Positions 7,012 through 48,401 of a DNA stretch of 64,000 nucleotides are shown piece after piece. How positions within the stretch are numbered: position 1 is the stretch's first letter; every line of letters starts with the position of its first letter. This DNA is from Bradyrhizobium sp. ISRA464 (GTDB lineage Bacteria > Pseudomonadota > Alphaproteobacteria > Rhizobiales > Xanthobacteraceae), in assembly GCF_029910095.1 (NCBI RefSeq), contig NZ_CP094526.1, positions 3,906,001 through 3,970,000 on the forward strand, in the 5' to 3' direction. The notes under the pieces are model-generated. The model saw only the letters and a list, made by a program, of their open reading frames with translations. It had not been told where the DNA came from and made no database searches. A program made the position numbers and the translations under genes.

Positions 7012-8331
7012 ATGCGATTGTCGCGGTTTTTCCTGCCCATTCTGAAAGAGAACCCGAAAGAGGCGGAGATCGTCTCGCATCGGCTGATGCTGCGCGCGGG
7101 CATGATGCGGCAGGAGGCGGCCGGAATTTATGCCTGGCTGCCGCTCGGCTTCCGGGTGCTGAAGAAGATCGAGCAGATCGTCCGCGAGGAGCAGGATCGC
7201 GCCGGCGCGCTCGAGCTGTTGATGCCGACGCTGCAGCTTGCCGATCTCTGGCGGGAAAGCGGCCGCTACGACGCCTATGGTCCGGAGATGCTGCGCATCG
7301 TCGATCGCCACAAGCGCGAGCTGCTGTACGGGCCGACCAACGAGGAGATGATCACCGAGATCTTCCGCTCCTACGTCAAGTCGTACAAGAACCTGCCGCT
7401 CAACCTCTATCACATCCAGTGGAAGTTCCGCGACGAGCAGCGTCCGCGGTTCGGCGTGATGCGCGGCCGCGAGTTCCTGATGAAGGACGCGTATTCGTTC
7501 GACCTCGACGAGGCTGGCGCGCGCCGCTCCTACAACAAGATGTTCGTCGCCTACTTGCGCACCTTTGCGCGGATGGGCTTGAAGGCGATTCCGATGCGGG
7601 CCGAGACTGGTCCGATCGGCGGTGACCTCAGTCATGAATTCATCGTGCTCGCGGAGACCGGTGAGTCCGGCGTCTACATCAATCGCGACGTGCTCGACCT
7701 GCCGGTGCCGGGAGCGGACGTCGATTATGATGGCGATCTGACGCCGATCATCAAGCAATGGACCTCAGTCTACGCGGCAACGGAGGACGTGCACGATGCC
7801 GCGCGTTTCGAGCAGGAGGTGCCCGAAGCGAAGCGCTTGAACACCCGCGGCATCGAGGTCGGCCAGATCTTCTATTTCGGCACCAAATATTCCGACACCA
7901 TGAAGGCGCTGGTGGCCGGTCCCGATGGCGTCGACATGCCGATCCACGGCGGCTCCTACGGCGTTGGCGTGTCGCGACTGGTCGGTGCAATCATCGAGGC
8001 CTGTCACGATGAAGCCGGCATCAAATGGCCCGAAGCGGTTGCGCCGTTCCGCGCTGCGATCCTCAACCTCAAGCAGGGCGATGCCGCTGTCGATGGCGCC
8101 TGCGAGCAGCTCTACCGCGATCTGACGGCGAACGGCGTCGACGTGCTGTACGACGACACCGATCAGCGCGCCGGCGCGAAATTCGCCGCGGCCGATCTGA
8201 TCGGCATTCCCTGGCAGATCCTCGTCGGCCCCAAGGGCCTCGCGGACGGCAAGGTCGAGGTGAAGCGTCGCAGCGACGGTTCGCGCGAGAACATGAGCCC
8301 TGCCGACGTGGTCGCAAAACTCGCGGGTTAA
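7012..8331 (+). CDS. proS: proline--tRNA ligase (short alphaproteobacterial type)
   Basis: Charges tRNA-Pro with proline in the cytoplasm. At 439 residues it is the compact bacterial form that lacks the inserted editing domain found in the roughly 570-residue enzymes. Class II motifs are visible: motif 2 in [18 protein letters not shown] and motif 3 in [13 protein letters not shown]. The C-terminal anticodon-binding domain covers about residues 340-439. A TTGACG hexamer lies near 6916 in the upstream gap, but no convincing -10 follows. It is followed by the lol genes, a neighbourhood common in Rhizobiales. Confidence 0.95.
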
Positions 8332-8403
8332 AGTTTATTCACCTCGCTCGATCCCGCAGGGTAATCCGGCCACATTTGCCCCGAATCATGGGATTATCGA
8401 CAG

Positions 8404-9684
8404 ATGGATGAGACCATGAACGAGCCAGTCCGTACCCGGCCTTTTGCGCCATTCGAATGGCTTCTGTCCGGACGCTACCTGCGCGCACGCCGCAAGGAAG
8501 GGTTCATTTCAGTCATCGCTGGCTTTTCGTTTCTGGGCATCATGCTCGGCGTCGCCACGCTGATCGTCGTGATGGCGGTCATGAACGGCTTCCGCAAGGA
8601 ACTGCTGGACAAGATTCTCGGTCTCAACGGGCACCTTCTGGTGCAGCCGCTGGAGTCGCCGCTGACCGACTGGAAGGACGTCGCCGACCGCATCAGCCAG
8701 GTTCCGGGTATCCGCCTGGCCGCGCCTGTTGTGGACGGGCAGGGGCTCGGCTCATCGCCATTCAACGCGGCCGGCGTCTTCATCCGTGGCATCCGCGCCG
8801 ACGATCTCAACAACCTCACCTCGATCGCCAAGAACATCAAGCAGGGCTCGCTCGAAGGTTTTGACGAGGGGCAGGGAGTTGCGATCGGCCGCAGGCTCGC
8901 CGACCAGCTGTCGCTGCATGCCGGCGACAGCATCACGCTGGTTTCGCCGAAGGGCGCGGTGACGCCGATGGGCACCACGCCGCGCATCAAGCCCTACAAG
9001 ATCACCGCAGTGTTCGAGATCGGCATGTCGGAATACGATTCGACCTTCGTGTTCATGCCGCTGGCCGAGGCGCAGGCCTATTTCAACCGCAACAACGACG
9101 TGTCGTCGATCGAGGTGTTCACCACCAACCCGGACAAGATCGACACCTACCGCAAGCTGGTGACCGAGGCCGCGGGACGGCCGGTGTTCCTGGTCGACTG
9201 GCGGCAACGCAACTCGACCTTCTTCAACGCGCTGCAGGTCGAGCGCAACGTGATGTTCCTGATCCTGACCATGATCGTGCTGGTCGCGGCGCTCAACATC
9301 GTCTCGGGCCTGATCATGCTTGTGAAGGACAAGGGGCAGGACATCGCGATCCTGCGCACCATGGGGGCCTCGCAAGGCTCGATCATGCGCATCTTCCTGA
9401 TCACCGGCGCCTCGATCGGCGTGGTCGGTACGCTGACCGGCTTCCTCGTCGGCATGGTGATCTGCCTGAACATCGAGACGATCCGGCAGTTCCTGTCGTG
9501 GCTCACCAATACCGAGTTGTTCTCGCCTGAGCTCTATTTCCTCTCCAAGCTGCCCGCCGAGGTCGATTTCGGCGAAACGCTGGCCGTGGTGATCATGGCG
9601 CTGACGCTGTCTTTCCTGGCGACGCTCTACCCGTCGTGGCGCGCCGCGCGCCTCGATCCGGTCGATGCGCTCCGGTACGAGTGA
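8404..9684 (+). CDS. lolC: lipoprotein-releasing ABC transporter permease LolC/E
   Basis: 426-residue inner membrane subunit that extracts lipoproteins for transfer to the outer membrane. It has one N-terminal membrane span (about residues 28-50), a large periplasmic domain, and three C-terminal spans with the FtsX-type core. The conserved [12 protein letters not shown] coupling helix precedes span 2. A single LolC/E-type permease suggests a homodimeric LolF-like exporter rather than a LolC-LolE pair, but a second permease elsewhere cannot be excluded. A second ATG at 8416 is possible. The stop is 8 nt before lolD. Confidence 0.92.
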
Positions 9685-9692
9685 GGGCGCAT

Positions 9693-10391
9693 ATGACGGA
9701 GGGGGCGGAAGAGGTACCGGTCATCTATCTCCACGAGATCAGGCGGGAGTACAAGCAGGGCGAAGCGACGCTGACGATCCTGAACGGCGCGAAGCTCGCG
9801 CTGTGGCCGGGCCAGTCGGTGGCGCTGGTCGCGCCGTCGGGATCGGGCAAATCGACCTTGCTGCATATCGCAGGCCTGCTGGAGAGCCCTGACGACGGTG
9901 AGGTCTATGTCGCGGGCACGCCGACCTCGCAATTATCCGATGTCGACCGCACCCAGATTCGCCGCACCGACATCGGCTTCGTCTATCAGTCGCACCGGCT
10001 GCTGCCAGAGTTCTCGGCGCTTGAGAACGTCATGTTGCCGCAAATGATCCGCGGCCTCAAACGCTCCGAGACCGTGAAGCGGGCGACCGAGATCCTGGGC
10101 TATCTCGGCCTCGGCGACCGCATCACGCACCGGCCGGCTGAACTGTCCGGCGGTGAGCAGCAGCGCGTGGCGATCGCGCGCGCGGTCGCGAATGCGCCGC
10201 GAGCGCTGCTTGCAGACGAGCCGACCGGCAATCTCGATCCGAGCACCGCCGATCACGTCTTCAACGCGCTGATGCAACTCGTGAAGGCGACTCGGGTCGC
10301 GATGCTTATCGCCACCCACAACATGGATCTGGCCGCACGGATGGACCGCCGGGTGTCATTGTCGAACGGACAGGTCGTCGAGCTCGATTAG
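9693..10391 (+). CDS. lolD: lipoprotein-releasing ABC transporter ATPase LolD
   Basis: 232-residue ATPase that powers lipoprotein release with the adjacent permease. Walker A is PSGSGKST, the signature is LSGGEQQR, Walker B is [12 protein letters not shown], and the switch His is in IATHNMD. The ATG at 9693 is preceded by GAGGG and fits the family length; an upstream in-frame ATG at 9636 would lie inside the permease gene. Confidence 0.95.
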
Positions 10392-13490: not shown

Positions 13491-13924
13491 ACACTGACCG
13501 AGTGGCCCTTGCCGATAGCGTACTGCCGCACGACGAACTGATACTCAGGCTTGAAGTTCGCCAGCTCCCACTGCTCCAGCATGGCAACAAGGTCTTCCAT
13601 CTCCCAAAGCTTGTCGGTGACCTTGGCAGCCATTGCCGGCGTCACCTTTAGGGTCTGATGGATGCGAACGAAGTTGTAATACATCGTATGCAGCGCAATC
13701 GCTGCCGCGTGGTTCTGGACCTTCTTTGAGAAGGCATTCGTCAATCGCGTGAACCGGCGCATGTGCATACGCATGGTGAGATTGCTGCGCTCAGCATAGG
13801 ACGTGCTGATGTGCTTCTGCTCGGGGTTGCCGATCTTGGGCTTCTTCTCTGCACCAATGCACTTAGCCGGGCTGTAACGGGTCTCAGCCTGCGGGTCAGC
13901 GCCGTAAATCTTGACCAACATGGC
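13491..13924 (-). pseudogene. IS1-like transposase C-terminus plus downstream accessory frame
   Basis: Minus-strand frame starting [20 protein letters not shown], with the catalytic Glu in [12 protein letters not shown] and ending near DLVAMLEQWE. It joins exactly to DVDY of the fragment ending at 12780. The same frame continues into ANFKPEYQFVVRQYAIGKGH, which I take to be a small accessory frame, broken at VLW by the IS21 insertion; its remainder is at 15856. Confidence 0.75.
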
Positions 13925-14839
13925 GTGCCGGACAACACCAAGGTCGCGGTGATCAAAGCCTGCCTCTACGATCCGCAGATCAACCGCAGCTACGCCGACA
14001 TGGCGGCGCATTACGGCACCGCCATTCTGCCGGCCAGGCCACGGCGGCCACGCGACAAGGCGAAGGTCGAGCAGGCGGTCCTCATGGTCGAGCGCTGGCT
14101 GCTTGGACGGCTGCGCCACCGGACCTTCCACAGCCTCGCCGAGGTCAACGCGGCGATCGCCGAGTTAATGACCCGGCTCAACGAGGAGCGACCGATCCGG
14201 CGGCTCGGCGTGACCCGCCGCAAGCTATTGGAGGAGATCGACCGGCCGGCACTCAAGGCCTTGCCGGAAAGCCCTTACGTGTTTGCCGAGTGGCGGATCT
14301 GCCGGGTCAGCATCGACTATCACGTCGAGGTCGAGGCGCATTACTACAGCGTCCCGCATCGCTTCGTCCGCGCCGAAGTTGAGGTACGCGTCACCGCCCG
14401 CACCGTCGAGATTTTCCACAAGGGTGAGCGGATCGCCGCGCATCAGCGCATGAGCGGCAACCACAAGCACACGACCGTGCCGGAGCACATGGCCTCCAGT
14501 CATCGGCGCTACGCCGGCTGGACCATCGAGCGCATCCGCAAGGAGGCCGCCATCATCGGACCGGCCACCGCGGCGCTGTGCGATCTGATCCTCGATGAGC
14601 GTTCGCATCCGGAACAGGGCTTCCGCGCTTGCCTCGGCATCATCCGGCTCGCCCGATCCTACGGGCAACAGCGGCTCGATGCCGCCGCCATGCGGGCGAT
14701 CGATATCGGCGCGCGCACTTACGGTTCGGTCAAATCGATCCTCGCCAACAACCTTGATCGGCGTCCTTCACCCAAGCGCTCCGCGGACGACGCGCCGATC
14801 CTTCATCCCAACATCCGCGGGCCGCGCTACTACAACTAG
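13925..14839 (+). pseudogene. istA: IS21 transposase IstA, C-terminal fragment
   Basis: Frame from [20 protein letters not shown] to the stop at 14839, about 304 residues. It covers the end of the rve catalytic domain ([20 protein letters not shown] includes the catalytic Glu region) and the C-terminal IstA domain. An open frame continues upstream to 13763 but that part is antisense to the IS1-like piece. The N-terminal domains are missing, so transposase activity is not expected. It precedes istB by 12 nt. Confidence 0.85.
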
Positions 14840-14851
14840 GGAGATCACGCC

Positions 14852-15595
14852 TTGCTCACCCATCCGACCCTCGATCAGCTTCACGCGCTCGGCCTTCATG
14901 GCATGGCCAAGGCTTTCGCCGACATCGAAGCCGGCGGCGAGGCCGCCAGCCTCGGCCACGCCGAATGGCTTGCGCTGCTGCTCGAACGTGAAGCGTCGCT
15001 GCGGCGCGACAAGCGACTGTCGAAGCGGCTGCAATACGCCAAGCTGCGCCAGCAGGCCTGCGTCGAGGACATCGACTATCGCACCCCGCGCGGCCTCGAC
15101 CGCAGCCTCTTGACGATGCTGGTCGAAGGCCAATGGATCGACGACCACACCAATCTTTTGATCTGTGGCCCGTCCGGCGTCGGCAAGAGCTGGCTCGCTT
15201 CGGCGCTCGGCAACAAAGCCTGCCGCGACAATCGCTCCGTGCTCTATCAGCGCGTCCCGCGACTGTTCAGTGATCTCGCCTTGGCGCGCGGCGACGGCCG
15301 CCACCCGCGTCTGCTGCGCGCACTGGGCCGTGTCGATCTGCTCATCCTCGACGACTGGGGCCTCGAGCCGCTCGACGCCGCGGCCCGGCACGACCTCCTG
15401 GAGATCCTCGAGGACCGCTACGGCCACCGCTCCACCATCGTCACCAGCCAGCTCCCCGTCGATCAATGGCACGCGCTGATCGGCGACCCCACCTACGCCG
15501 ATGCCGTCCTCGACCGCCTGGTCCACAATGCTCACCGGATCGATCTCAACGGCGAGAGCCTGCGGCGAACCCGCAAGCCCGGCCGAACGGCCTGA
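14852..15595 (+). CDS. istB: IS21 helper ATPase IstB
   Basis: 247-residue AAA+ ATPase that helps IstA choose and remodel target DNA. Walker A is GPSGVGKSW at about residue 105 and Walker B is LLILDDWGLE. The start is a TTG at 14852 with GGGAG 8 nt upstream; full family length is retained. It appears intact, unlike its partner IstA, so it could act only in trans with another IS21 copy. Confidence 0.93.
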   Translation: MLTHPTLDQLHALGLHGMAKAFADIEAGGEAASLGHAEWLALLLEREASLRRDKRLSKRLQYAKLRQQACVEDIDYRTPRGLDRSLLTMLVEGQWIDDHTNLLICGPSGVGKSWLASALGNKACRDNRSVLYQRVPRLFSDLALARGDGRHPRLLRALGRVDLLILDDWGLEPLDAAARHDLLEILEDRYGHRSTIVTSQLPVDQWHALIGDPTYADAVLDRLVHNAHRIDLNGESLRRTRKPGRTA

Positions 15596-16001: not shown

Positions 16002-16217
16002 ATGAATAGATCAATTTGGGGCCGTTTGATCGCCGTGGCCGTGGTTGAGTTGGTAATAGGCGGTATGTGGCTGTTCGGTACTGTCAACCCGGCGATTTTC
16101 GCTGTGCTGATGCTTGGTGTGCCCGCACTGGCTCTGACGGTTGCTCTGCCAATAGTGTATTTGATCAGGTCCAATCGTTCTTCAATACAAGACGGCCCAC
16201 CTTCAAATCCCAACTAG
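16002..16217 (+). CDS. small hypothetical membrane protein
   Basis: 71 residues with two hydrophobic spans (about residues 8-27 and 31-53) and a polar tail SNRSSIQDGPPSNPN. GAGGGGGCG lies just before the ATG. I do not recognise a family. It sits 20 nt after the broken accessory frame. Between 16218 and 16292 is a perfect inverted repeat GGTCAGTTT...AAACTGACC (16261-16280) followed by CACTACC, which resembles an IS-end remnant. Confidence 0.5.
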   Translation: MNRSIWGRLIAVAVVELVIGGMWLFGTVNPAIFAVLMLGVPALALTVALPIVYLIRSNRSSIQDGPPSNPN

Positions 16218-16292
16218 GCCCGCCACCTCCCGCCACGATTAACCAAGGGAATTCTTTCGGGGTCAGTTTTCAAACTGACCCACTACCCCGGC

Positions 16293-16321
16293 TTGACTCT
16301 GAGAACAAAAAAAGAACAATG
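16293..16321 (+). promoter_or_regulatory. sigma70 promoter with LexA (SOS) box in the spacer
   Basis: TTGACT at 16293-16298, a 17-nt spacer, and ACAATG at 16316-16321. Inside lies GAAC-N7-GAAC (16303-16317), the reverse complement of the alphaproteobacterial LexA site GTTC-N7-GTTC. Bound LexA would cover both hexamers. The nearest start codon is the 32-codon frame at 16355, and dnaE follows. Confidence 0.8.
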
Positions 16322-16354
16322 TTCTGCATACGTTCCAGTTCACGGGAGGCGGCC

Positions 16355-16453
16355 ATGTTGAAGATTTTCGTGGAAGAGGCGGCGGCACTGGCATCGATCA
16401 CGCTGTTCGTCGGAATGATCGCGGTCTGGGCCCAGCTCTTCACCCAGTTCTGA
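16355..16453 (+). CDS. 32-residue single-span membrane peptide, predicted SOS-induced
   Basis: The frame begins MLKIFVEEAAALASITLFVG and ends LFTQF. The first eight residues are charged or polar, the next 20 or so form one hydrophobic helix. GGGAGG is 5 nt before the ATG and the LexA-box promoter is about 35-60 nt upstream, so it should be made after DNA damage. By size, topology, SOS control and position ahead of dnaE it resembles SidA, the 29-residue division inhibitor of Caulobacter. That link rests on architecture only. It is too short for routine gene finders. A 9-bp hairpin (16522-16548) lies between it and dnaE. Confidence 0.65.
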   Translation: MLKIFVEEAAALASITLFVGMIAVWAQLFTQF

Positions 16454-16645
16454 AAATGGGCGAGCGGGACCAGCGGCATAAGCACCCCCTGGGGAAAAGC
16501 GGGAGGATGGGCCGCCATGCGGCGTTCCGCGTGGACTCGGCGGAACGCAGGCGTCACGATGGCGCGGCGAGTCGGGCCTAAAGCATAACCAAGCGCTGGG
16601 GCCGTTGGCTCGCGTCATCCCCAGCGCAGTGATCCCTGAGCAGCC

Positions 16646-19600
16646 ATGTCGAATGCCGGATTCGTTCATCTTCACGTCCATTCGGCCTATTCGCTGCTGA
16701 AGGGCGCGATCAAGATCGCCAAGCTCGGCGAGCTTGCGAAGGCTGATCGCCAGCCGGCGCTGGCGCTCACCGACACCGACAACATGTTCGGGGCGCTGGA
16801 ATTCTCCGACAAGATGGCGGGCTACGGCATCCAGCCGATCGTGGGCTGCGAGCTCGCGGTGGATTTCGGCGACGTCGATCCCACTGCACGCAGCGTGCTG
16901 GCGGCGGGGCCCGCGCGAATCGTCCTGCTCGCGGCGCGTGAGCGCAGCTATCGCAGCCTGATGCGGCTGAACTCGCGGGCGTTTCTGGAGACGCCCGTCA
17001 ACCAGACCCCGCACATCAAGTTCGACTGGCTCGCGGACGATGCCGAAGACCTGATTGCGCTGACCGGCGGCCCTGACGGGCCGATTGCGCTCGCGCTCGG
17101 CGCCGACCAGGCGGCGTTGGCGGCCACCCGCTGCGACCGTTTGGCCGGCCTGTTTGGCGACCGGCTCTATGTCGAGTTGCAGCGCCACGGCGTGGACAGG
17201 GAGCGCCGGACGGAGGGCGGCCTGATCGATCTCGCTTATGCCAAGGGCCTGCCGCTGGTCGCGACCAACGAGCCGTATTTCGCCACCACCGACGACTACG
17301 AATCGCATGATGCGCTGCTGTGCATCGCCGGCGGTCATCTGATCGCCGAGACCGATCGCGTGCAGCTCACCCCCGATCACCGCTTCAAGACCCGTGCGGA
17401 GATGGCGGTGCTGTTCGCCGACATTCCGGAAGCGCTGGCGTCGACAATGGAGATCGCCGAGCGCTGCTCGTTCCGGCCGAAGACGCGCAAGCCGATTCTG
17501 CCGTTCTTCACCGTCGGTGCCGCGCAGAGTTCCGATGCCGCCGCCGACGAGGCGGCCGAGCTGAAGCGGCAGGCGGAGGAGGGGCTTGTAAAGCGCCTGA
17601 AGGTGCACGGTCTGTCGCCGGGGATGACGGAGGAGGACTACAACAAGCGGCTCGCTTTCGAGCTCGACGTCATCACCCGCATGAAATACGCGGGCTACTT
17701 CCTGATCGTGTCCGACTTCATCAAATGGGCCAAGGCTCAGGGCATCCCGGTCGGACCCGGCCGCGGCTCCGGTGCAGGCTCGCTGGTTGCGTGGGTGCTC
17801 ACCATCACCGACCTCGATCCGATGCGCTTCGCGCTTCTGTTCGAGCGCTTCCTCAATCCCGAGCGCGTCTCGATGCCGGACTTCGACATCGACTTCTGCC
17901 AGGACCGCCGCGGTGAGGTGATTCAGTATGTGCAGGAGCGCTACGGCCGCGATCAGGTGGCGCAGATCATCACCTTCGGTACGCTGCAGGCGCGCGGCGT
18001 CCTGCGCGACGTCGGGCGCGTGCTGCAGATGCCCTACGGTCAGGTCGACAAGCTGACCAAGCTGGTGCCGCAGAATCCCGCAGCTCCAGTCACGCTGGCG
18101 CAGGCGATCGAAGGCGAGCCCAAGCTGCAGGCGTTCCGCGACGAGGATCCGGTCGTGGCGCGCGCCTTCGACATCGCGCAGCGTCTCGAGGGCCTGACCC
18201 GCCACGCCTCGACTCACGCGGCCGGTATCGTGATCGGCGATCGGCCGCTCAGCGAGCTGGTGCCGCTCTACCGCGATCCGAAATCCGACATGCCGGTCAC
18301 CCAGTTCAACATGAAATGGGTCGAACCGGCGGGGCTGGTGAAATTCGACTTCCTCGGGCTGAAGACGCTGACCGTGCTCGATGTCGCGGTGAAGCTGCTC
18401 AAGCAACGCGACATCCATGTCGATCTTGCGACCCTGCCGATCGACGACGCGGCAAGCTACCAGATGCTGGCGCGGGGCGACGTGGTCGGCGTGTTCCAGG
18501 TGGAAAGCCAGGGCATGCGGCGCGCGCTGATCGACATGCGGCCGGACCGCTTCGAGGACATTATCGCGCTGGTGGCGCTGTACCGTCCGGGTCCGATGGC
18601 GAACATCCCGACCTATTGCGCGCGCAAGCATGGCGACGAGGAGCCGGAATACCTGCATCCGATCCTGGAGCCGATCCTGAAGGAGACGTTCGGCGTCATC
18701 ATCTATCAGGAGCAGGTGATGCAGATCGCGCAGCAGATGGCGGGCTACTCGCTCGGCCAGGCCGACCTGCTGCGCCGCGCGATGGGCAAGAAAATCCGCG
18801 CCGAAATGGACAAGCAGCGCGACGTCTTCGTCGCCGGCGCGACCAAGAACAACGTGCCGAAGGCGCAGGCGGAGACGATCTTCGAGCTGCTCGCCAAGTT
18901 CGCCGACTACGGCTTCAACAAGAGCCACGCGGCGGCCTATGCGCTGGTGTCGTACCACACCGCCTACATGAAGGCGCATTACCCGGTCGAGTTCCTCGCC
19001 GCGTCGATGACGCTCGAACTCAATAACACGGACAAGCTCTCCGAATTTCGTTCCGAGGCGCAGCGCCTCGGCATCAAGGTCGAGGCGCCCAACATCAATC
19101 GCTCCGGTGCGACCTTCGAGGTCGGCGGCAACACGATCTACTACGCGCTCGCCGCGCTGAAGGGCGTCGGCCTGCAGGCGGTCGAGCAGATCGTGGAGGA
19201 GCGCAAGAAGGGCGCGTTCACCTCGCTCGCCGATTTCGCCGCGCGCGTGAGCCCGCGCGCGGTCAACAAGCGCATCATCGAGAGCCTCGCGGCCGCGGGC
19301 GCCTTCGACACGCTCGAACCCAACCGCGCCAGGGTGTTCGCCGGCGCGGACGCGATTCTCGCCGCCTGCCAGCGCGCCCATGAAGCCGCGACGTCGGGAC
19401 AGAACGACATGTTCGGCGGCGCGGCGGATGCGCCGAGCATCATTCTGCCGCAGGTCGAGCCGTGGCTGCCGGCGGACCGGCTGCGCCGCGAATATGATGC
19501 GATCGGATTCTTCCTCTCGGGCCATCCGCTGGACGATTACGCCACCGCCCTGAAGCGGCTTCGCGTGCAGTCCTGGGCGGAGTTCTCGCGCGCGGTCAAA

Positions 19601-20164
19601 ACCGGCGCGACCGCGGGGAAGGTGGCGGCGACGGTGGTGTCGCGCATGGAGCGCCGCACCAAGACCGGCAACAAGATGGGAATCATGGGCCTGTCGGACC
19701 CAACCGGCCATTTCGAGGCGGTGCTGTTCTCCGAGGGGCTCGCGCAATATCGTGACGTGCTCGAGCCGGGCGCGGCGGTGCTGCTGCAGCTTGGCGCCGA
19801 ACTGCAGGGCGAAGATGTGCGGGCCAGGGTGCTGCACGCCGAACCGCTGGATCACGCGGCGGCCAAGACGCAAAAGGGCTTGCGCATCTTCGTCCGCGAC
19901 ACCAAGCCGCTCGACTCGATCGCCCGCCGGCTCAACATGCCGGAAGCCGCTCCGCCCGCCGGCGGCGCCGGAAAGGTGACGGCGGCAAAGCCGGAGCCGG
20001 CACCGCCGCCTGCGGCTGGTGCCGATGGCGACGTCTCGCTGGTGATGATGCTCGACCTCGAAACCGAGGTGGAGATGAAGCTGCCCGGCCGCTACAAGGT
20101 CTCGCCGCAGATCGCCGGAGCGATCAAGGCCGTCGCCGGCGTCGTCGACGTGCAAACGCTGTAA
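16646..20164 (+). CDS. dnaE: DNA polymerase III alpha subunit
   Basis: 1172-residue replicative polymerase. The N-terminal PHP domain starts at [11 protein letters not shown] (residue 8). The palm has the catalytic PDFDIDF at about residues 410-416 and [10 protein letters not shown] just before it. The finger and thumb follow with [10 protein letters not shown] and [14 protein letters not shown], then HhH and OB-fold regions ([10 protein letters not shown]). It works with the beta clamp at the fork. It may be co-transcribed with the upstream SOS peptide, but about 190 nt separate them and no ribosome binding site is strong at the ATG. After the stop comes a nested hairpin (20173-20216) without a T-run. 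Confidence 0.96.
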
Positions 20165-26779: not shown

Positions 26780-27931
26780 ATGCCCGAGTTTTTTCTGCAT
26801 AGTTTCAATACGTTGAGCCATGGGCTCGTGGGTTATATCGTTCCCTTCCTGTTCGTCCTGACGATTGTCGTCTTCTTTCACGAGCTGGGCCATTTCCTCG
26901 TTGCGCGCTGGGCGGGCGTGAAGGTGTTGACCTTCTCGCTCGGGTTCGGGCCGGAGCTCGTGGGCTTCAACGACCGGCATGGCACGCGCTGGAAGATTTC
27001 CGCGGTTCCGCTCGGCGGCTACGTGAAATTCTTCGGCGACGACACCGAGGCGTCCACGCCTGCTGCGGCGACGCTTGCCGCGATGACCGCGGAGGAGCGG
27101 CAGGGCAGCTTCCATCACAAGAGTGTCGGACGGCGCGCCGCGATCGTCGCGGCCGGTCCGTTTGCCAATTTCATCCTGGCCATTGCGATCTTCACCTGCC
27201 TGTTCACCTTTTTCGGCAAGCCGAGCACGTCGGCACGGGTCGACAAGGTGGAAGCCAACAGCGCCGCCGCTGCCGCCGGGTTCCAGATCGGTGACATCGT
27301 CACCGCAATCGACGGCACGAAGATCGACAGCTTCTCGGACATGCAGCGCATCGTCAGCATCAATGCCGGCGACGCGCTGACCTTCACGGTCAAGCGGGGC
27401 AATTCAACCGTGCAGCTTCGCGGAACCCCCGAACTGCGCGAGGTGAAGGACCCCTTCGGCAACACCCACCGGATGGGTGTGATGGGCATCACACGGGCGA
27501 CCGCACCTGGCGATGCCGTGACCGAGAAGGTCGATCCCGTGACCGCGCTTGGGCTGGGCATCAAGGAAACCTGGTTCGTGATTGACAGGACCCTGGCCTA
27601 TATCGGCGGTATCTTCACCGGGCGGGAGGCGGCTGATCAGGTCGGCGGGCCGCTCCGAATCGCCCAGATCTCGGGGCAGGTTGCCACCATCGGCGTGGCC
27701 GCCCTGATCCACCTGGCAGCCGTCCTTTCGATCTCCATCGGCCTTCTGAACCTGTTCCCGGTTCCGCTCCTCGATGGCGGGCACCTCTTGTTTTACTCCG
27801 TCGAGGCCGTCCGCGGCCGCCCGCTGTCGGAGCGGGCTCAAGAAATGGGGTTCCGAATCGGGCTGGGTTTGGTGTTGATGCTGATGGTCTTTGCTACCTA
27901 CAACGACATCCTGCATCTGGCCGCGTCCTGA
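26780..27931 (+). CDS. rseP: RIP zinc metalloprotease RseP
   Basis: 383-residue inner membrane site-2 protease. Zinc motif FFHELGHF in the first span (residues 32-39), a periplasmic PDZ domain (about 115-200), and the third zinc ligand in NLFPVPLLDGGH. It cleaves anti-sigma factors or signal peptides within the membrane. GAGAGGAAACG precedes the ATG at 26780. About 175 nt, with only a small CGTTGC/GCAACG hairpin, separate it from bamA. Confidence 0.95.
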   Translation: MPEFFLHSFNTLSHGLVGYIVPFLFVLTIVVFFHELGHFLVARWAGVKVLTFSLGFGPELVGFNDRHGTRWKISAVPLGGYVKFFGDDTEASTPAAATLAAMTAEERQGSFHHKSVGRRAAIVAAGPFANFILAIAIFTCLFTFFGKPSTSARVDKVEANSAAAAAGFQIGDIVTAIDGTKIDSFSDMQRIVSINAGDALTFTVKRGNSTVQLRGTPELREVKDPFGNTHRMGVMGITRATAPGDAVTEKVDPVTALGLGIKETWFVIDRTLAYIGGIFTGREAADQVGGPLRIAQISGQVATIGVAALIHLAAVLSISIGLLNLFPVPLLDGGHLLFYSVEAVRGRPLSERAQEMGFRIGLGLVLMLMVFATYNDILHLAAS

Positions 27932-35628: not shown

Positions 35629-36288
35629 ATGAAGATCGATCCAATCGCCTATGCCGGAGCCGTCGTTCGCGAAGTCGCCGTCAGGGAGCGCGACGGCAAG
35701 CCGGCGCGGGCGGTGATCGCGACCCGCAGCTACGACACCGACACCGCTGATCTTTGGGACGCACTGACCAATCCCGAGCGTATTCCACGCTGGTTCCTGC
35801 CGATCTTGGGCGATCTGAGACTTGGTGGCCGCTACAAATTCGAGGGGCAGGCGGGCGGCGAAATCACGGCCTGCGAGCCACCGCGCCGGCTCGCGGTGAC
35901 CTGGGAGGCCATGGGAACCGTGAGCTGGGTTACGGTGACGCTGGCCGATGATCACTCCGGGGGAACGCGCCTGGAACTGGAGCATCTCTCGATTATCGAG
36001 GGTGACTTCTGGGATCGTTATGGACCGGGTGCCGTCGGCGTTGGCTGGGATCTCGCTCTGATCGGGCTCGCCCTCTATCTCGCTACGGGTGACGGGCAGG
36101 AATTCGACCGCGACGCGGCTGCGGCGTGGCCCGCCTCGGAGGACGGCAAGGACTTCATCCGACGCAGTAGCATGGACTGGTGCAGGGCCTCGATCGCTGC
36201 GGGCACGGAAGAAGCCGCCGCGCGGAGCGCCGCGGCCAACACGACGGCTTTCTATTGCGGCGAGCCGGAACCGGGCAGTGGAGGCTAG
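35629..36288 (+). CDS. SRPBCC (AHSA1-like) domain protein
   Basis: 219 residues. The AHSA1-type start-like fold runs from RSYDTDTADLWDALTNPERI through PRWFLP, LGGRYKFEG and LEHLSIIEG. Such proteins bind small hydrophobic ligands and are often paired with an ArsR repressor, as here. The ligand is unknown. Its stop is 6 nt before the regulator's GTG start. Confidence 0.8.
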   Translation: MKIDPIAYAGAVVREVAVRERDGKPARAVIATRSYDTDTADLWDALTNPERIPRWFLPILGDLRLGGRYKFEGQAGGEITACEPPRRLAVTWEAMGTVSWVTVTLADDHSGGTRLELEHLSIIEGDFWDRYGPGAVGVGWDLALIGLALYLATGDGQEFDRDAAAAWPASEDGKDFIRRSSMDWCRASIAAGTEEAAARSAAANTTAFYCGEPEPGSGG

Positions 36289-47534: not shown

Positions 47535-48239
47535 TCAGTATTTGCGATAGAGCCCGATCAGCTTGCCCTGGATCCGTACGCGGTTTGGCGGCAGGATGCG
47601 CACTTCATAGGCGGTATTGGCAGGCTCGAGCGCGATCGACGCGCCGCGGCGGCGGAAGCGCTTCAGCGTCGCTTCCTCCTCGTCGATCAGCGCCACCACG
47701 ATGTCGCCGGTGTTGGCGGTGTCGTTGCGCTGGATCAGCGCCATGTCGCCGTCGAGGATGCCGGCGTCGACCATGGAGTCGCCGCGCACCTCCAGCGCAT
47801 AATGTTCGCCGGCGCCGAGCATGTCCGGCGGCACGCTGATGGTGTGGCTGCGGGTCTGCAGCGCCTCGATCGGCGTACCGGCCGCGATCCGGCCCATGAC
47901 AGGGACGGCGACCGGCCGGTTGCCGTCATCCTCGGCGATCTGCGGCGTGCTGGAGCGCTTGCCGAGCGTGCCCTCGATAACACTGGGGGTGAAGCCGCGG
48001 CGGCCGTTGCCGCCGCCGGCCGAGAGTTCGGGAAGCTTGATCACCTCGATGGCGCGGGCGCGGTTCGGCAGGCGGCGGATGAAGCCGCGCTCCTCCAGTG
48101 CTGTAATGAGGCGGTGGATACCGGACTTCGAGCGCAGGTCGAGCGCATCCTTCATCTCGTCGAAAGAGGGCGGGACGCCGGCCTCCTTCAGACGTTCATT
48201 GATGAAACGCAGAAGTTCGTACTGTTTGCGCGTGAGCAT
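47535..48239 (-). CDS. lexA: SOS repressor LexA
   Basis: 234 residues. N-terminal winged helix ([33 protein letters not shown]), self-cleavage site Ala-Gly in RIAAGTP, nucleophile Ser in VRGDSMVD and general base Lys in EATLKRF. It should repress itself through the box at 48387 and the peptide/dnaE promoter at 16293. Confidence 0.97.
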
Positions 48240-48386
48240 CTCGAGTATTCCCCCGGTTGATAGCGTCGTTCGATTCCGAGACCTTCAGGGAGCCTGACCT
48301 CGGGAGCGCGAGACTTGCGACACTCCTCAGTGCGCTCCCATTTGTAGACACCAGTACTCGAAACAAATCATGAACGGACACTATAT

Positions 48387-48401
48387 GTTCGATATGTGTT
48401 C
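48387..48401 (-). promoter_or_regulatory. LexA box of lexA
   Basis: GTTC-GATATGT-GTTC, an exact alphaproteobacterial SOS site, about 150 nt upstream of the lexA start. A TATAGT-like -10 on the minus strand (48381-48386) adjoins it, so LexA would block its own promoter. Confidence 0.8.

Follow-up and report, generated by a model that had tools for sequence, protein, structure and literature searches.

A 32-codon gene located just upstream of dnaE1 in Bradyrhizobium sp. ISRA464, at positions 16355-16453 of the + strand of the 64,000-nucleotide stretch analysed here (hereafter the window), probably encodes a diverged orthologue of SidA, namely a LexA-controlled helical peptide that would halt cell division through the late divisome after DNA damage. 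A probability of about 0.8 is given to this reading, in which the gene, its boxes, the selection acting on it, its genomic slot and its sequence similarity to SidA, with intermediates, constitute the observed part. SidA of Caulobacter, an inner-membrane protein of 29 residues, acts on FtsW and inhibits division in trans (PMC4211646).

The elements of the locus follow one another on the + strand in the order TTGACT (a -35-like hexamer, 16293-16298), two LexA-type boxes, a Shine-Dalgarno-like GGGAGG (16344-16349), the frame of the putative SidA-type single-helix membrane peptide MLKIFVEEAAALASITLFVGMIAVWAQLFTQF (P0001; ATG at 16355, stop codon at 16451-16453), assigned from profile, selection and structure, a gap of 192 nt (16454-16645), and dnaE1 (16646-20164), the conserved neighbour. 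An earlier note on this DNA had placed promoter, box and frame at 16293-16453, followed by dnaE, and all of these elements are present in the sequence. Its "dnaE" is the replicative dnaE1, encoding the DNA polymerase III alpha subunit, according to NF004226 (1496.9 bits), which rules out a dnaE2 or imuAB cassette as the neighbour. The gap between peptide and dnaE1 contains two perfect 9-bp inverted repeats (16522-16548 and 16593-16627); a scan found no terminator-like site in these 192 nt, and their predicted RNA folding was no more stable than that of shuffles (z -0.23).

On the upstream side, a lolD-like ABC ATPase gene (9636-10391, + strand; PF00005), which in relatives is the upstream neighbour of the slot, lies about 6 kb away from the peptide, with IS21 genes in between. 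Thus, an insertion has split the usual lolD-peptide neighbourhood in this genome. The IS21 pair, at 13763-15595, is incomplete and consists of an istA-like frame, in which only the C-terminal part of the model was matched, and istB; proS-like, lolC/E-like and lolD-like genes occupy 7012-10391 on its upstream side. A 71-residue hydrophobic frame with no Pfam or NCBIfam match is found directly 5' of the SOS promoter (16002-16217), and a perfect 10-bp inverted repeat (GGGTCAGTTT/AAACTGACCC, 16260-16281) just 5' of the -35 hexamer; as a guess, this repeat is possibly an IS end or the terminator stem of an upstream unit.

The promoter region carries two exact LexA-type boxes of opposed orientation. 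Box 1 (GAACAAAAAAAGAAC, 16303-16317, + strand) is an exact GAAC-N7-GAAC and overlaps the -10-like hexamer AACAAT (16315-16320, + strand), and box 2 (16321-16335, - strand; GTTCTGCATACGTTC on the + strand) is also exact, the compound site reading GAAC-N7-GAAC-AAT-GTTC-N7-GTTC. The exact SOS box described in the earlier note was therefore real, but it is one of a pair and not single. Its -10 element, ACAATG at a distance of N17, is a poor match and gives way to AACAAT with a 16-nt spacer, which is favoured by the promoter scan: together with TTGACT it matches 9 of 12 consensus bases, and shuffles contain on average 0.2 such sites. When up to 3 mismatches were allowed, the compound pattern, defined post hoc with the site already known, was absent from all 100 sequences obtained by dinucleotide shuffling of the window. 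Single boxes with at most one mismatch are not unusual in the window (37 found versus 48.5 expected; 5 sites exact), so that the weight rests on the pair and on its conservation. Indeed, the pair GAAC-N7-GAAC-N3-GTTC-N7-GTTC is exact in all 25 genus loci and in 51 of 53 family loci, the other two having one mismatch per box, and it starts 46-87 nt 5' of the ATG. The same box type is carried by the gene for the presumed repressor, lexA (about 47538-48239, - strand, the low end taken from a model match and the start codon read from the sequence), which is preceded by an exact box (48387-48401, - strand) and a one-mismatch box (48361-48375). These two boxes are likewise in opposite orientation (48361-48401), resembling the arrangement at the peptide. 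Other exact GAAC-N7-GAAC sites in the window are located at 26840-26854 and 35963-35977.

Judged from its codon statistics, the peptide frame is under purifying selection. Its pN/pS is 0.142 for the 25 loci of the genus and 0.137 for the 53 of the family, and the other two frames give 1.96 and 3.65 over the same 53 loci (55 listed loci minus two weak ones, those outside the genus being the best-scoring ones). The variable codon positions in this set comprise 28 of 31 third positions and only 4 of 31 second positions. The peptide was matched in all 25 genus genomes (its own and 24 others) with E values of at most 1.3e-9, and in 237 of 295 family genomes, covering 38 of 47 genera, at E<=1, where a few of the matches are weak; the remaining 58 family genomes gave no match at that threshold. 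A plain search with the same peptide in 16 genomes of the order's other families returned nothing significant (two at E 0.28 and 0.90), and the plasmid collection searched held no relatives of it. Neither Pfam nor NCBIfam offered another assignment: Pfam gave no match for the window peptide and just stray weak ones over 28 family members, and NCBIfam, apart from SidA, only two stray weak matches over these 28. The single hydrophobic helix proposed by the earlier note for the 32-codon frame was borne out by hydropathy and by AlphaFold2 (9-row alignment), which predicts one helix over residues 2-31 of the 32 with a mean pLDDT of 94 and is silent on function. SidA, with about 29 residues and one transmembrane helix, has the same format.

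CCNA_02004 and CC1926 are presumably neighbouring genes in Caulobacter, judging from the offset between the two numberings. The former is sidA (PMC11034885) and the latter dnaE (PMC1839093). The situation in the type strain C. vibrioides DSM 9893 (L156) fits both assignments, since the 29-residue peptide found in the slot just 5' of dnaE1 is SidA according to the curated equivalog model NF033228 (72.4 bits; cut-off 35); its frame opens 149 nt upstream of the first DnaE residue in the alignment and is preceded by LexA boxes, one exact and two with one mismatch. Among Caulobacteraceae-type loci, the region before dnaE1 contains a peptide of 29-33 residues and a box with no more than one mismatch in all 76 evaluable cases, and in 44 the box is exact. 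This set derives from the best 80 of 266 loci, 4 of which were dropped for having too little upstream sequence; nearly all of the 80 are titled Caulobacter, Brevundimonas, Phenylobacterium or Caulobacterales, with a few Proteobacteria and one MAG Bordetella. The peptide caller used for these 76 loci demanded a loose SidA-like motif, and a motif-free caller concurred (44/44 with an exact box, 76/76 with at most one mismatch). Thus, the slot 5' of dnaE1 is shared by the window, C. vibrioides DSM 9893 and 75 further loci.

Sequence homology to SidA, assessed against decoys, is modest for the window peptide and firmer for its family and the intermediates. NF033228 gave no match to the window peptide at thresholds up to E 10, and formal membership of that curated family is thus lacking. 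A peptide from the window's family (G062) gave a weak match under the cut-off (E 0.067, 13.2 bits), and at E<=0.1 the model recognised 4 of the 28 members of a diverse alignment (A3), these being three Caulobacteraceae peptides and that of G062. A profile built from 61 Caulobacteraceae peptides was scored on ORFs of at least 22 residues located up to 1.6 kb upstream of dnaE1 at 323 loci. Peptides of the window's family, f1, were matched from E 0.0024, the window's own at E 0.048, and the top outside match belonged to another family (L257, E 0.0015); the two uppermost rows, L106 and L107, are Caulobacteraceae genomes obtained by another route and were discounted as outside matches. The best decoys reached E 3.3 on the opposite strand and E 1.1 among shuffled sequences. 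After iteration, 215 of the 323 loci were accepted, and the sole strong decoy match was an inverted copy of the gene. Comparison of the f1 peptides (27 distinct sequences) with those of Caulobacteraceae by hhalign gave a gapless alignment of 24 columns with a score of 18.5 and a probability of 48%, a score reached by 1 shuffle in 300 when all columns were permuted and by 1 in 300 when only those of the helix were. The 28 members of A3 have one invariant Phe and the consensus M....RD.AAL.S..LF......W, and intermediates between the window's family and the Caulobacteraceae peptides are present in other families. Over 65 loci, peptide similarity followed DnaE similarity with a Spearman rho of 0.37, which none of 999 permutations equalled.

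What the earlier note had offered as a SidA-like candidate, to be aligned with the Caulobacter peptide, can be raised on these grounds to a probable orthologue: by slot, boxes, size, profile, gapless alignment and intermediates, the window peptide is probably SidA in diverged form, outside the curated model. The two share their size (29 versus 32 residues), a single helix preceded by one or more acidic residues, LexA boxes of the GTTC-N7-GTTC kind and the position just 5' of dnaE1. They differ in that identity to the C. vibrioides peptide is 34%, the Trp of the window peptide lies further along the helix, and the window boxes are opposed and 18 nt apart.

Box and peptide are linked well beyond the genus. 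Among 85 dnaE1 upstream regions of the order (25 listed and 60 picked, of 152 matching genomes), 84 were long enough; an exact box was present in 46 of them, and in 42 of these 46 it was followed directly by a helix peptide, located 15-120 nt past the box start. The same rule was satisfied in 3 of 230 shuffled and 0 of 47 opposite-strand controls. When peptides were called blind to the box, both elements were found at 39 loci, the box only at 9, the peptide only at 5 and neither at 31 (Fisher p 5e-10). A hydrophobic small frame missed by the profile is present at seven of the nine loci with the box only (L303, L306, L308, L310, L314, L318 and L322), and another of the nine, L276, has the gene in inverted form; either linkage rule was satisfied at 55 of the 85 loci. 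The slot is not always occupied by the family: in a class-wide sample of 40 loci picked from 239 matching genomes, a box with at most one mismatch and a peptide were called together at 9, and the other 31 had no such call, so that many families are without it there. At 12 loci from other Caulobacterales, box and peptide calls were unassociated (3/3/3/3), and at three of those with a peptide the boxes all have one mismatch. Four loci from these other Caulobacterales families (L145, L146, L150 and L153) have slot peptides of 28-31 residues, three of them with imperfect boxes only, and perhaps these imperfect boxes mark a shifted LexA motif. The earlier note's description of a bradyrhizobial peptide is too narrow, similar peptides being found in many other alphaproteobacteria.

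The gene is not bound to dnaE1. In family f153, where 58 of 61 genomes gave a dnaE match and 30 listed loci were examined, the peptide is found at dnaE1 in 18 (17 at E<0.03, one at 0.05), and 17 of these 18 have an exact box; at the 12 loci lacking the peptide, no exact box was found within 900 nt. In 11 of these 12 genomes a 28-residue relative was detected elsewhere (E 5e-7 to 0.12) with a profile of 28 rows, nine of them f153 peptides, which made no use of the box. In all 11 relocated genes an exact LexA box lies 36-51 nt upstream of the start codon, against a background of 2.3% of random 150-nt stretches at f153 loci, and a LolD-type ATPase motif lies upstream of the peptide at 6 of the 11. 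A LolD-type gene is followed in G132 by boxes, peptide and nusG, with no dnaE, and G753 has two exact boxes and a 93-residue frame, with a SidA-type helix at its end, on the opposite strand from dnaE. To judge from the sequences, the SidA-type helix of family f11 (L276/L380 of G753, L248 of G034 and L255 of G800) may form the final part of a longer frame. Profile searches found nothing convincing elsewhere in the twelfth f153 genome (G854, best E 0.55) or in 16 genomes of the order without the peptide at dnaE1 (best E 0.21), and therefore real losses or greater divergence remain among them.

Since boxes and peptide stay together where dnaE is not adjacent or lies on the opposite strand, the boxes are not kept for dnaE; most simply, the box belongs to the peptide, which is a gene in its own right and not a leader of dnaE1. 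This bears on the listing of dnaE, apart from the dnaE2 cassette, among the SOS-regulated genes of Caulobacter (PMC3323433), which we read as dnaE1: the LexA box credited to that gene would most simply be the box of sidA.

The arrangement at the locus nevertheless invites other explanations. A leader peptide or upstream ORF tuning dnaE1, with the SOS box serving dnaE1, would agree with a frame located on the same strand, 192 nt 5' of dnaE1 and with no terminator-like site in between, with the SOS listing of the Caulobacter dnaE in PMC3323433, and with the inclusion of S. meliloti sORF25, from the dnaE1 5'-UTR, in a group of sORFs some of which could be uORFs (PMC10117765). It is judged improbable, because selection acts on the amino-acid sequence, because boxes and peptide are kept without an adjacent dnaE1 (G132), inverted (G753) or relocated (11 of 12 f153 genomes), and because the Caulobacter counterpart inhibits division in trans (PMC4211646). 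The same strand, distance and lack of a terminator-like site would also suit a SidA-like peptide whose SOS promoter drives dnaE1 as well, damage raising both products; the separation of the two genes in other genomes and a possible dnaE1 promoter of its own in the gap weigh against it, and such co-transcription, which the earlier note had raised, is regarded as a real but minority possibility. Hardly any credence is left for a chance open frame behind a genuine LexA box serving dnaE1. Thirty-two codons are indeed few and the window has further exact GAAC-N7-GAAC sites, but the substitution ratios suggested as a check in the earlier note rule it out (pN/pS 0.14 versus more than 1.9 in the other frames), and the peptide recurs in every one of the 25 genus genomes and, at E<=1, in 237 of the 295 family genomes.

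A different kind of alternative concerns function. TisB is an SOS-controlled small peptide with a single helix, and a membrane-active peptide of the TisB or DinQ kind, lowering the membrane potential and unrelated to SidA in function, would have size, single helix and SOS control in common with the product described here. This is thought unlikely, though somewhat less so than a leader function, given that slot, box and sequence tie the window peptide to SidA, and that an invariant Phe and a common pattern in 28 diverse members suggest a protein partner over composition alone. DidA, the other small single-helix membrane division inhibitor that acts in Caulobacter after DNA damage, has 71 residues, is driven by DriD and not by LexA, independently of SOS, and targets FtsN (PMC4211646); identity with it is ruled out for a 32-residue peptide with LexA boxes.

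A diverged SidA orthologue could work at this locus as follows. LexA bound to the two opposed boxes would cover the -10 region of a sigma-70-type promoter and repress it. Upon DNA damage, RecA-stimulated cleavage of LexA would free the promoter and allow the 32-residue peptide to be made, which would then enter the inner membrane as one helix with its N-terminus inside and keep the late divisome (FtsW/FtsI/FtsN) inactive until repair of the chromosome is complete. For induction by damage, insertion into the membrane and its orientation, arrest of division and the choice of FtsW as target, this scheme borrows from SidA. At the positions of Caulobacter F145 and A246, the sites of SidA-suppressing changes, the FtsW of this genome carries the matching residues; counted by eye on an alignment, F145 is found in 8 of 8 genomes and A246 in 6 of 8, with Ser in two. 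These sites are generally conserved, and their presence is thus a consistency check with no power to discriminate.

Damage-induced membrane proteins that act late in division, as inhibitors belonging to the SOS response, are also known from other bacteria, namely YneA of B. subtilis, SosA of S. aureus and ChiZ of M. tuberculosis. All three are longer, and YneA has a LysM domain. Such a domain distinguishes ChiZ as well (PMC13396833), and in the same source AlphaFold3 models, of low confidence according to their authors, place YneA, SosA, ChiZ and SidA on TM7 of FtsW, with SidA on the side opposite to the other three. Closer to Bradyrhizobium, ribosome profiling of S. meliloti revealed a translated small frame, sORF25, in the dnaE1 5'-UTR, with no role assigned to it (PMC10117765). 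It is similar to the present gene in being a translated small frame at this position in another rhizobium, and its membership of the same family, compared by description only, is a lead. The literature searched describes no SidA relatives outside Caulobacter, and an earlier mention in subscription papers is possible; Modell 2011 is reportedly the founding SidA paper. The main texts of PMC5082802 and PMC4842269 do not mention dnaE or LexA.

The family reaches well beyond the curated SidA model, and the window peptide had been unannotated until now. Taken together, the data make it likely, at a somewhat lower confidence than the orthology of the window peptide, that SidA is an old alphaproteobacterial checkpoint, represented by fast-diverging LexA-controlled helices (27-47 residues at the loci covered), often located just 5' of dnaE1, that would act in much of the class to hold back division during the SOS response, and that the LexA box ascribed to dnaE in Caulobacter and related bacteria belongs to this peptide gene, which is mostly unannotated. 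The combination of slot, box and profile family yields candidate genes in rhizobia and other genera that are small and easily missed by annotation, and it gives an explanation for the apparent SOS regulation of dnaE, the conserved box being most likely that of the peptide. Moreover, natural variation among these diverged, co-located peptides and the FtsW proteins they pair with could serve to map the site of contact.
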